DNA from: Stutzerimonas decontaminans
GTDB lineage: Bacteria; Pseudomonadota; Gammaproteobacteria; Pseudomonadales; Pseudomonadaceae
Direction of reading: 5' to 3'
Assembly: GCF_000661915.1 (NCBI RefSeq)
Contig: NZ_CP007509.1
Coordinates: 3,241,501-3,305,500 of the forward strand
Length of the DNA stretch: 64,000 nt
The notes beneath the pieces were generated by a model. That model searched no databases and was not told the origin of the DNA. It saw only the letters and a list, made by a program, of their open reading frames with translations. Below, piece after piece: positions 8,919 through 58,034 of this stretch. How positions within the stretch are numbered: the stretch's first letter is position 1; each line of letters starts with the position of its first letter. A program made the position numbers and the translations under genes.

Positions 8919-8995
8919 TGGCGTCCCAGAGAGGGGTCGAACCTCCAACCTTCCCCTTAGGAGGGGGATGCTCTATCCAATTGAGCTACTGGGAC
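8919..8995 (-). tRNA. tRNA-Arg (anticodon CCT)
   Basis: 77-base cloverleaf on the minus strand with encoded CCA. The acceptor stem pairs GTCCCAG with CTGGGAC. The D arm is GCTCAATTGGATAGAGC. The anticodon stem TCCCC/GGGGA holds loop CTCCTAA, giving CCT. The T arm GGAGGTTCGACCCCTC is typical. Confidence 0.95.
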
Positions 8996-16235: not shown

Positions 16236-16312
16236 TGGCGCACTCAGGAGGATTCGAACCTCCGACCGCTCGGTTCGTAGCCGAGTACTCTATCCAGCTG
16301 AGCTATGAGTGC
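16236..16312 (-). tRNA. tRNA-Arg (anticodon ACG), copy 1
   Basis: 77 bases on the minus strand with encoded CCA. Acceptor GCACTCA pairs with TGAGTGC. The anticodon loop CTACGAA gives ACG, read as ICG for CGU/CGC/CGA. Identical to the copy at 16384-16460. Confidence 0.95.
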
Positions 16313-16383: not shown

Positions 16384-16460
16384 TGGCGCACTCAGGAGGA
16401 TTCGAACCTCCGACCGCTCGGTTCGTAGCCGAGTACTCTATCCAGCTGAGCTATGAGTGC
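16384..16460 (-). tRNA. tRNA-Arg (anticodon ACG), copy 2
   Basis: 77 bases, identical in sequence to the copy at 16236-16312, with 71 bases between them. Same orientation as tRNA-Ser and rsmA, so all may be processed from one transcript. Confidence 0.95.
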
Positions 16461-16569: not shown

Positions 16570-16660
16570 TGGCGGAGAAGGGGGGATTCGAACCCCCGAC
16601 ACCCTTTTGAGGTGTACTCCCTTAGCAGGGGAGCGCCTTCGGCCACTCGGCCACCTCTCC
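16570..16660 (-). tRNA. tRNA-Ser (anticodon GCT)
   Basis: 91 bases with the long variable arm of a class II tRNA and encoded CCA. The acceptor GGAGAGG pairs with CTTCTCC, including one G-U. The anticodon loop CTGCTAA gives GCT. It lies between rsmA and the tRNA-Arg pair, the arrangement known in Pseudomonas. Confidence 0.95.
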
Positions 16661-45609: not shown

Positions 45610-45830
45610 CCGCACTGTCAGTGAATGCGACAGGCCGGTCTCCGGGCTTGCGAGCGTACGCCTTGCAGCGTTCCGAAACCGCGCCTTCCCATGCGTGAGC
45701 ACAGTGGCTGTTACGGTTTCTCAACTCGCCTACCGTTGCGGGGGCAGCGCCGGAATCTTCGTGAGAATGGACCGGCTTCCCTGTTTCACCCCCTCTTCGA
45801 CGAGGGGGCACCTGAGGCGACGCGGAGGTT
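45610..45830 (-). promoter_or_regulatory. Cobalamin riboswitch
   Basis: On the minus strand the B12 box AAGCCCGGAGACCGGCCTG is at about 45630-45649. Upstream lies the conserved core GCTGCCCCCGCAACGGTA. The 5' part (about 45773-45815) contains a long stem, CCCCCTCGTCGAAGAGGGGG. These are the defining elements of the AdoCbl aptamer. It ends about 110 bases before btuB. Boundaries are approximate. Confidence 0.92.
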
Positions 45831-56512: not shown

Positions 56513-57589
56513 TCAGCCGCGCAGGCTTTGTGCCGCCTGCCGCAGCATTTGCTCAGTGGCCGTCCAGCCCAGGCAGCCGTCGGTGATCGACACGCCGTAG
56601 CGCAACTCACCGGACAGCGGCTGGCAGCCATCGAACAGGTGGCTTTCGAGCATTACACCGCGCAGGCTAGCGTCGCCGGCCAGGCGCTGTGCGATGACCG
56701 ACTCCAGCACTTCTGGCTGGCGCAGCGGATTCTTGCCGCTGTTGGCATGACTGCAATCGACCATGATGCGCGGCGCGATGCCCTGCTTCTCCAGCGCGCG
56801 ACGAGCAGCAGCGACACTGTCCGCGTCGTAGTTGGGTGCGCCATGGCCGCCGCGCAGGACCAGGTGGGTATCCGGATTGCCACGGGTCTGCAACAGCGCT
56901 GGGTGGCCGAGGTCGTCGATGCCGAAGTGCTGGTGCGGATGTTCCGCTGAACGCATGGCGTCGCAGGCGATGCCCAGGCCGCCATCGGTGCCATTCTTGA
57001 AGCCCACCGGCAGGTCCAGCCCGCTGACCAGCTCACGATGAATCTGCGATTCACTGGTACGCGCACCAATCGCGGCCCAGCCGAGCAGATCGTCGAAGTA
57101 CCCGGCAGCCATCGGCTGCAACAGCTCGGTGGCGATGGGCAGGCCGGTCTCAAGAACATCCAGCATCAGGCGGCGCGACAGGTGCAACCCCTCGGCCATG
57201 TTGCCGCTGCCGTCCAGGTGCGGGTCGTAGACCAGGCCTTTCCAGCCGACCGTAGTGCGCGGCTTTTCCACATAGGCACGCATCACCAGCAGTAGCTGGT
57301 CGCTGACTTCGGGCGCGAGCGCGGCGAGACGCTCGGCGTACTCGAGCGCGGCGACAGGATCGTGCAGGGAACAGGGCCCGACGACGACCAGCAGGCGCGG
57401 GTCGCGGCCATCGAGCACCGCGCGGATGGCGTTGCGGTCGTTATGGATGCGTGCGGCAAGGGCGTCGCTCAAGGGCAGACGCTGGCGCAGAACGGCGGGG
57501 CTGGGCAGCGGCTGCGCGCTGCGGCGGGCGACGCTGGCTTCGGCGGTGGCGGCGGGTTGTTTGGCAAGTACGGTGGCGGATGCATTCAT
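56513..57589 (-). CDS. 3-deoxy-7-phosphoheptulonate (DAHP) synthase, class I
   Basis: 358 residues. First enzyme of the shikimate pathway (E4P plus PEP). PLSDALAARIHNDRNAIRAVL, VVGPCSLHDPVAALEYAERL, AYVEKPRTTVGWKGLVYDP and IMVDCSHANSGKNP are class I AroG/AroF signatures. The N-terminal ~30 residues are Ala-rich. Which amino acid inhibits it is not shown by sequence. It is preceded by an aromatic-rich leader region at 57634-58034 that suggests attenuation. Confidence 0.93.
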   Translation of the reverse strand: MNASATVLAKQPAATAEASVARRSAQPLPSPAVLRQRLPLSDALAARIHNDRNAIRAVLDGRDPRLLVVVGPCSLHDPVAALEYAERLAALAPEVSDQLLLVMRAYVEKPRTTVGWKGLVYDPHLDGSGNMAEGLHLSRRLMLDVLETGLPIATELLQPMAAGYFDDLLGWAAIGARTSESQIHRELVSGLDLPVGFKNGTDGGLGIACDAMRSAEHPHQHFGIDDLGHPALLQTRGNPDTHLVLRGGHGAPNYDADSVAAARRALEKQGIAPRIMVDCSHANSGKNPLRQPEVLESVIAQRLAGDASLRGVMLESHLFDGCQPLSGELRYGVSITDGCLGWTATEQMLRQAAQSLRG

Positions 57590-57633
57590 GATCTGGCGGT
57601 TCCTTCAGCCGGCGCGGGTAGTCCGCAGCGGCG

Positions 57634-57729
57634 CTAGTCGGGTGTTCGTTCGCGTGATGTCTGTTCGGCGTCGAAGCGGCTAAATCGCCAGTCGTAGCGG
57701 TAATAACGATCAGTGCGGTAAGTGGTCAT
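57634..57729 (-). CDS. Aromatic-rich small ORF directly before DAHP synthase
   Basis: 31 codons on the minus strand. The start is preceded by GAGGAA. The peptide holds YRTDRYYRYDWRFSRF, so five of its first 19 residues are Tyr/Trp and two Phe. It lies between the terminator hairpin at 57772-57804 and the DAHP synthase start, 44 bases upstream of it. It could be a second leader peptide or a small conserved protein. Confidence 0.6.
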   Translation of the reverse strand: MTTYRTDRYYRYDWRFSRFDAEQTSRERTPD

Positions 57730-57771
57730 GCTGTATTCCTCGTTGCGTTGGGCCATTCGTGGCCGAAAAAC

Positions 57772-57804
57772 AAAACCCCCGGTCGGGTGGCCGACCGGGG
57801 GTTC
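57772..57804 (-). terminator. Rho-independent terminator in the DAHP synthase leader
   Basis: CCCCCGGTCGG, loop of four, CCGACCGGGGG on the minus strand, followed by TTTTGTTTTT. It is a strong intrinsic terminator placed upstream of the DAHP synthase gene and downstream of a leader peptide, the position of an attenuator. Confidence 0.9.
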
Positions 57805-57852
57805 GAAAACTGCTCTGGTGGCGACCCTGCTTGCTAGGGCGCCTGTGGGGTA

Positions 57853-57981
57853 TCAGGCGCGCCTGTGGCTAAACCAATACCCAAAGTAATAACCAGCGGC
57901 TGCAACCCGCTGCCCACGACCGGCCGCGACGCGAATGGCGCCGGCATCGGATACGTTCAGGGCTACAGGGTTGAGGGACAT
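57853..57981 (-). CDS. Putative aromatic leader peptide (attenuator) of DAHP synthase
   Basis: 42 codons. GGAGATC precedes the ATG. The C-terminal third is AGYYFGYWFSHRRA, a run of Tyr, Phe and Trp codons (residues 31-37) six codons before the stop. This composition and the terminator 48 bases after the stop fit a ribosome-stalling leader that senses charged tRNA for aromatic amino acids. The promoter at 58005-58034 lies just upstream. Confidence 0.72.
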   Translation of the reverse strand: MSLNPVALNVSDAGAIRVAAGRGQRVAAAGYYFGYWFSHRRA

Positions 57982-58004
57982 GCTGATCTCCAGAAGATGG
58001 TCGA

Positions 58005-58034
58005 ACCATACTCCGCCGAGACGGCCGCTTTCAA
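58005..58034 (-). promoter_or_regulatory. Sigma-70 promoter of the DAHP synthase leader
   Basis: On the minus strand, -35 TTGAAA, 18-base spacer, -10 TATGGT. The predicted start is about 15 bases before the leader ATG at 57981. Confidence 0.6.

Follow-up and report, generated by a model that had tools for sequence, protein, structure and literature searches.

The leader-peptide attenuators of trp and pheA in Escherichia coli have one leader open reading frame (ORF). Here we describe the leader of an aroF-type 3-deoxy-d-arabino-heptulosonate-7-phosphate (DAHP) synthase gene of Stutzerimonas decontaminans, found in a stretch of 64,000 nucleotides (nt) of contig NZ_CP007509.1 (positions 3,241,501 to 3,305,500), which was analysed as a whole and is called the window below. 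The locus resembles trp and pheA in having a short leader ORF with cognate codons (ORF1), competing hairpins and an intrinsic terminator before a biosynthetic gene, and it differs from them in a second ORF (ORF2) past the terminator, which seemingly addresses the start of the gene. A first-pass annotation made from the letters alone had placed an aromatic leader-peptide attenuator here and recommended a search of Rfam; that search identifies the 3′ end of ORF1 together with the terminator as P15 (RF00627), a family the annotation had missed. We read the locus as two leader-peptide stages in series, the first acting on transcription and the second on translation, and we put the probability of this reading at roughly 55%. 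The first stage, transcription attenuation by ORF1, is very probable on the sequence evidence. For translational control by ORF2 the odds appear about even, an estimate that was lowered because, in the fold model of the window, a stall opens the start no further than it is in free RNA. Since ORF2 lies beyond the terminator, it cannot act on the terminator, and the translation start of the DAHP synthase gene would be its target, which we hold with moderate confidence.

Leader elements ahead of DAHP synthase genes have been proposed elsewhere. In the available parts of the respective papers, uORFC-13-1 before aroF in Acholeplasma is a proposed sensor of Phe or Tyr (PMC8632094), and the aroF leader elements of Shewanella and E. 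coli are likewise proposed to sense Phe or Tyr (PMC2659441). These elements share their position ahead of the gene with the leader described here; they belong to other lineages and have other sequences, and no second ORF after a terminator was found in the accessible portions of those sources. The closest known two-stage case is anti-TRAP (rtpA) of Bacillus subtilis, for which the accessible text of PMC4027176 describes that uncharged tRNA induces both transcription and translation; the title of a paper in its reference list states that translation initiation is regulated by a leader peptide coding region. One gene controlled at both levels is the common point as far as that text goes; the transcription stage of anti-TRAP is a T box, whereas in our locus a leader peptide would serve each stage and the controlled gene is biosynthetic.

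In kind, the first stage of our locus is an ordinary leader-peptide attenuator, and a conserved second aromatic leader past the terminator is unreported in the literature we found. Among the open-licence literature, supplements aside, no paper was found on two leaders flanking the terminator of a DAHP synthase gene; an earlier prediction of ORF1 is possible. We take PA1750 to be the DAHP synthase gene with the corresponding leader in Pseudomonas aeruginosa. PMC4263517 names PA1750 just as a co-purified shikimate protein, a term search in the main text of a P. aeruginosa 3′-end map (PMC8297930) returned neither PA1750 nor P15, and the terms aroF, DAHP and aromatic were not found in the main text of a survey of premature terminators (PMC2965389).

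The occurrence of ORF2 was counted in loci chosen by their P15 match (numbers with L, G, f and g are our own labels for loci, genomes, families and genera). Of 185 matches read, 184 precede a DAHP synthase gene. A script annotated 175 of the 185, and the remaining ten were read individually: ORF2 is present in L075, L115, L116, L124, L140 and L142 and absent from L110, L114 and L117, and the tenth, L199, is not at a DAHP synthase gene. ORF2 is therefore found in 181 of 184 P15-selected leaders, namely 169/169 of Pseudomonadaceae, 6/6 of family f36 and 6/9 of family f43. Judging from its close relatives Halomonas, Chromohalobacter, Salinicola and Modicisalibacter, f36 probably represents the Halomonadaceae. 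Among the 20 closest named loci the script detected ORF2 in 17 (absent from L266 and L270, L280 unparsed), and the named carriers include Stutzerimonas stutzeri, S. chloritidismutans, Pseudomonas putida, P. mosselii, P. umsongensis, Halomonas elongata and Chromohalobacter moromii.

A parallel layout exists in a set of 40 Acinetobacter-type loci, which consists of the best 38 from a 149-genome search and the named loci L293 and L297; 39 were parsed. In L293, L297 and their relatives (family f35, genus g131), whose enzymes share 54-88% identity with the L293 enzyme, the order is likewise ORF1, terminator, ORF2, gene. Here ORF1 reads ..AYFYFWQFR and ORF2 ..SYFSNFYWFYF... ORF1 has an aromatic run in 33 of the 39 parsed loci, and an aromatic ORF2-like ORF occurs in 36 (L411 is doubtful; none in L407, L408 and L412). 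A pair of leaders on the two sides of a terminator had seemed unusual to the first-pass annotation; the 181 leaders and this parallel layout indicate that the second leader is real.

For the first stage, the ORF1 core TAT TGG TTT AGC is near-invariant in 175 loci. Pairing was counted in 20 leaders from Pseudomonadaceae and f43, with slid alignments as controls. The terminator, the hairpin between regions 2 and 3 (2:3) and P1 have 94.4% of cells paired, compared with at most 57.6% in the controls; the terminator stem reaches 98.2% and the 2:3 helix 95%. For the two competing pairings, 1b:2 and 3:4, 86.7% of cells are paired (controls at most 59.0%), 85.8% in 1b:2 and 89.3% in 3:4, but the middle pair of 3:4 is mostly broken. 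Region 1b is positioned where a ribosome finishing ORF1 sits. Folding was modelled for six leaders as equilibrium folds with blocked stretches, and with a stalled ribosome the window sequence folds into the 1b:2 hairpin. The conserved ORF1, the competing pairings at its 3′ end and the terminator support the proposed attenuator ahead of the DAHP synthase gene, and the evidence reads as P15, which Rfam files as a Pseudomonas sRNA, being the terminated leader of this gene and a probable ribosome-mediated transcription attenuator.

The mechanism that we infer for the stalling, the antiterminator, the direction of the response and the amino acids that count is as follows. When charged tRNA-Tyr, tRNA-Phe and tRNA-Trp are plentiful, the ribosome would reach the ORF1 stop and cover region 1b, region 2 would then pair with region 3, the terminator would form, and a short P15 RNA would be released. 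When these tRNAs are scarce, the ribosome would stall within YYFGYWF, region 1b would pair with region 2, and region 3 would be free to disturb the terminator, so that RNA polymerase reads through. In the read-through mRNA, the Trp-codon region of ORF2 would pair with the start region of the DAHP synthase gene and hide the start. A ribosome stalled at the Tyr, Trp and Phe codons of ORF2 would cover this anti-start strand and expose the start, and one completing ORF2 would let the anti-start helix close.

Composition, complementarity and a fold model bear on the second stage. In 76 representatives the Tyr/Phe/Trp fraction of ORF2 is 0.203 (lowest 0.100), compared with 0.053 in the other two frames and 0.038 in the enzyme; aromatic content kept while the sequence drifts is as expected of control codons. 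Each locus was also scored for the duplex of the ORF2 Trp window with the gene start window, the null being permuted starts (20,000 permutations). In the window, CTGGCG/CGCCAG gives a duplex with the aroF start window of -13.0 kcal/mol, and other duplexes are GACUGGC/GCCAGUC (L064), GCAUGGCG/CGCCAUGC (L158) and an 11-bp helix in Acinetobacter L297. The matched duplexes of the 76 representatives averaged -10.6 kcal/mol versus -8.88 (sd 0.25) for permuted starts, with 0/20,000 permutations as low, and the 61 non-Acinetobacter representatives averaged -11.05 versus -10.1 kcal/mol, again with 0/20,000. The same test against the start of ORF2 itself gave p 0.97. After thinning by start-window identity to 47, 41 and 19 loci, p was 0.006, 0.0003 and 0.05. 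The ORF2 Trp region thus matches its own gene's start better than the starts of other loci, and this complementarity is suggestive, not conclusive. In the fold model, blocking the ORF2 codons near Trp makes the start cheaper to open, by about 1.8 kcal/mol in the 20 strong cases outside Acinetobacter and by 1.5-2 kcal/mol in 15 Acinetobacter cases, and a ribosome at the ORF2 stop makes it costlier; an earlier accessibility model with a single stall position gave small effects.

Several results weigh against two stages in series. With respect to the first stage, the structures vary little, and the RNAalifold covariation term is -0.03. Pairs of the terminator, 2:3 and P1 that changed on both sides are not above shuffles (92/500 shuffles reach 2), and neither are those of 1b:2 and 3:4 (466/500). 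Of the alignment across relatives suggested by the first-pass annotation, the part concerning the ORFs held, in that both are conserved and the objection that they might not be fails; as to compensatory pairing, there is little covariation. The 5′ arm of the window terminator pairs upstream with a value of 0.64 in the stalled fold, compared with 0.41 in the free RNA and 0.48 with a ribosome at the stop; the antiterminator is weakly predicted, and the other folded leaders show hardly any or no upstream shift.

With respect to the second stage, ORF2 is lost in the three f43 leaders named above, where the gene follows close behind the terminator, and no ORF2 was seen in the Halomonadaceae loci L250 (ORF1 only) and L270. 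The 15 Acinetobacter representatives alone gave p 0.12 in the duplex test, and the thinned sets without Acinetobacter gave 0.06, 0.03 and 0.05. At least six unbroken pairs are found in 29/61 non-Acinetobacter and 12/15 Acinetobacter representatives, so the helix is not universal, and in most loci the fixed ORF2 bases AUUUAGC lie outside it. In the 15 weakest cases a stall changes nothing in the fold model. For the window, opening the start costs 3.32 kcal/mol in free RNA; the cost is 3.1-3.3 when the ribosome stalls on the Trp codon or immediately ahead of it, and 5.31 when it has reached the ORF2 stop. In this model a stall would help only relative to completed translation of ORF2, not relative to free RNA.

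On the minus strand the order is ttcA, promoter, ORF1, terminator, ORF2, DAHP synthase, and the positions are collected in Table 1. The gene upstream of the leader was assigned as ttcA by NF007972. The first-pass annotation had already marked a promoter-like -35/-10, a leader ORF with a seven-residue aromatic run, a strong terminator and a second aromatic-rich ORF right before the DAHP synthase gene, and all four were recovered. The promoter-like site has 9/12 consensus matches, and a consensus scan found 1 site versus 0.4 (sd 0.7) in shuffles. In a 50-locus alignment of the genus, conservation reaches at least 90% for AGTA.GGT of the -10 region and 70-90% for most of TTGAAA; the promoter regex matches just 69/175 leaders overall. 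The terminator is the strongest of 4 terminator-like sites in a 2-kb stretch, where 1.5 are expected, and ORF2 holds 7 aromatic residues. The genome has two DAHP synthases, the window copy and one elsewhere.

Table 1. Features of the DAHP synthase leader region, in window positions
Feature	Position	Strand	Details
Sigma-70-like promoter	58005..58034	(-)	-35 TTGAAA 58034-58029, spacer 18, -10 TATGGT 58010-58005
ORF1, leader peptide 1	57853..57981	(-)	42 aa, ends GYYFGYWFSHRRA
ORF1 aromatic run	57891-57871	(-)	YYFGYWF
Rfam RF00627 (P15) match	57776..57895	(-)	ORF1 3′ part, hairpins and terminator; 115.2 bits, cut-off 70
Region 1b	57854..57860	(-)	GCGCCTG, ORF1 last codons and stop; can pair with region 2
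Region 2	57837..57845	(-)	CAGGCGCCC; pairs with 1b or region 3
Region 3	57820..57827	(-)	GGGTCGCC; pairs with region 2, possible pairing with terminator
Intrinsic terminator	57773..57804	(-)	14-pair stem, then T-rich tail TGTTTTTC
ORF2, leader peptide 2	57634..57729	(-)	31 aa, MTTYRTDRYYRYDWRFSRFDAEQTSRERTPD, Shine-Dalgarno GAGGA
ORF2 near-invariant core	57679..57690	(-)	TGG CGA TTT AGC (codons WRFS)
Proposed anti-start strand in ORF2	57686..57691	(-)	CTGGCG; duplex with aroF start window
Second conserved ORF2 stretch	57642..57648	(-)	CGAACAC, near ORF2 3′ end
Partner of CTGGCG	57593..57598	(-)	CGCCAG, between DAHP synthase Shine-Dalgarno and start codon
DAHP synthase, aroF-type, type I (regulated gene)	56513..57589	(-)	358 aa; PF00793 (DAHP_synth_1), TIGR00034 aroFGH, NF009395

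Elsewhere on the minus strand of the window, Rfam places a cobalamin riboswitch at 45616-45830 (106.6 bits). Four tRNA genes lie on the same strand at 8922-8995, 16239-16312, 16387-16460 and 16573-16660, two of which have equal scores and are close together.

Within the genus, 53 of 56 genomes carry P15; in the family 244 of 298 sampled genomes do, and in the order 27 of 293. The single match that does not precede a DAHP synthase gene is a weak second one (L199, G015:C1:2613500-2615100, 29.8 bits). In G005, a genome with 5% listed contamination, contigs C5 and C15 carry P15 copies of equal score. Twenty of the 54 family genomes lacking P15 were searched for DAHP synthase leaders. Eighteen of the 20 have a DAHP synthase match, at best 51-55% identical to the window enzyme, and no small ORF that passed our criteria for aromatic richness was seen upstream in these 18 regions; the P15-less genome G090 also holds a 185-amino-acid fragment with 63% identity (L109). 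In the examined P15-less genomes the leader seems to be absent together with the window-type gene copy. Twelve further DAHP synthase loci were read, and nine of these, from families f41, f23, f47 and f26, showed no ORF1- or ORF2-like leader.

A model search at the class level gave matches in 17 of 369 genomes. Most of them have E values near 1e-4, and those that were read are mostly not at DAHP synthase genes. One locus of family f207, from another order of the class (L208), gave a model match of 8.4e-21 and has ORF1 before a DAHP synthase gene, maybe with a degenerate ORF2 stretch. In f20-type lineages an ORF1-like leader (..FFWWFGYGFYFSQ..) precedes the DAHP synthase gene in 7/8 loci, without a WRF-type ORF2. 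The DAHP synthase genes of L253-L259 (f20), L261, L262 and L265, which belong to other lineages of the order, have another aromatic leader (e.g. AVFFWWFGYGFYFSQ..) and no WRF-type second ORF. In Geomonas (L286, L287) and in a Chloroflexi metagenome-assembled genome (L325), ORFs upstream of DAHP synthase genes contain FFF or YWYFF runs and may be leader-like.

The twelve ORF2 bases TGG CGA TTT AGC are nearly invariant even at silent sites, which two stages of plain control codons leave unexplained. In 61 representatives with less than 70% peptide identity, the core codons are CGA in 60/61, TTT in 60/60 and AGC in 43/43 Ser cases, and the downstream gene uses these codons at 4.5%, 6.7% and 41%, respectively. 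CGA TTT is kept in 173/175 annotated copies, including L113, L118, L084 and L116, which have lost the Trp, and a second fixed CGA ACA occurs in the ORF2 tail of 153/175 copies. TTTAGC is common to the ORF2 core TGGCGATTTAGC and the ORF1 core TGGTTTAGC and near-fixed in both, TTT being rare in the gene. The ORF2 core has one exact match in its own genome, which is ORF2 itself. The fixed codons of the core, the CGA TTT kept without Trp and the second CGA ACA would fit a sequence-specific stalling or RNA signal UGG CGA UUU AGC in ORF2 (slow CGA/UUU codons, nascent-chain arrest or a binding site) in place of plain control codons. We regard such a signal as possible, though doubtful, as the core is absent from Acinetobacter ORF2 and has been lost in L115, L140 and L142 while ORF2 stays. 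A combined version, in which two serial sensors operate and the second contains a sequence-specific ribosome-stalling cassette, TGG CGA TTT AGC, in which each base is retained for some reason at the level of codons or RNA, is offered tentatively; we know of no such cassette from other attenuators. A pairing of the core (TGGCGATTT) with P15 region 3 (GGGTCGCCA) has 9 bp in one group, is broken without compensation by GGGACGCC and GGGGCCGCC, and was rejected as a conserved structure.

Regulation by ORF1 alone appears unlikely, with ORF2 as a translated, non-sensing coupling ORF that protects the long leader against Rho and brings ribosomes to the gene start. ORF2 has a strong Shine-Dalgarno sequence in most loci. 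Its stop lies mostly 35-48 nt ahead of the gene start, a position that suits a translational attenuator with a leader peptide. In 8/13 Halomonadaceae loci the end of ORF2 falls between -4 and +5 nt of the gene start; this points to translational coupling and counts for the second stage as well. That three f43 leaders manage without ORF2, and that the anti-start helix is not universal, would also agree with coupling. A shield alone, however, needs neither 20% Tyr/Phe/Trp, which is kept in Acinetobacter under a different sequence, nor complementarity to the gene start, and two leader-peptide stages in series remain the reading that we prefer.

A functional small protein encoded by ORF2, e.g. a regulator of the adjacent enzyme, is very improbable. 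ORF2 is co-transcribed and conserved, and 86 relatives occur in protein collections, where any name shown is hypothetical protein; yet the sequence outside the core drifts and the length varies from 84 to 153 nt. Two groups have a ratio of nonsynonymous to synonymous changes (pN/pS) in ORF2 of 0.60 and 0.49, lower than in the other frames (0.77-1.33); in four further groups the ratio is 0.77-0.98, no lower than in the other frames. That P15 is a riboswitch, as the available part of PMC2527527 proposes from synteny, or a trans-acting sRNA, in line with its filing as an RNA gene in Rfam, is hardly credible, since the near-fixed aromatic codons of ORF1 overlap P15 and all but one of its 185 matches precede a DAHP synthase gene. 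The released P15 RNA may have a side role in trans.

P15, an Rfam Pseudomonas sRNA, gains a probable function as an attenuator leader. According to our proposal, entry into aromatic amino acid synthesis in the relatives of Pseudomonas, Halomonas and Acinetobacter would be set by two successive translation-based checks. Specialists would hardly expect P15 to be an attenuator leader, or a second aromatic leader to be conserved behind it in several families. A stalling signal that acts at the level of codons or RNA may come to light through the 12 fixed bases of the ORF2 core. With two peptide sensors in series, the dose response is predicted to be steeper than with one of them, and if the proposal is true, ribosomes would read the mRNA two times before any enzyme is produced, which would amount to an AND gate sharpening control of entry into the shikimate pathway.
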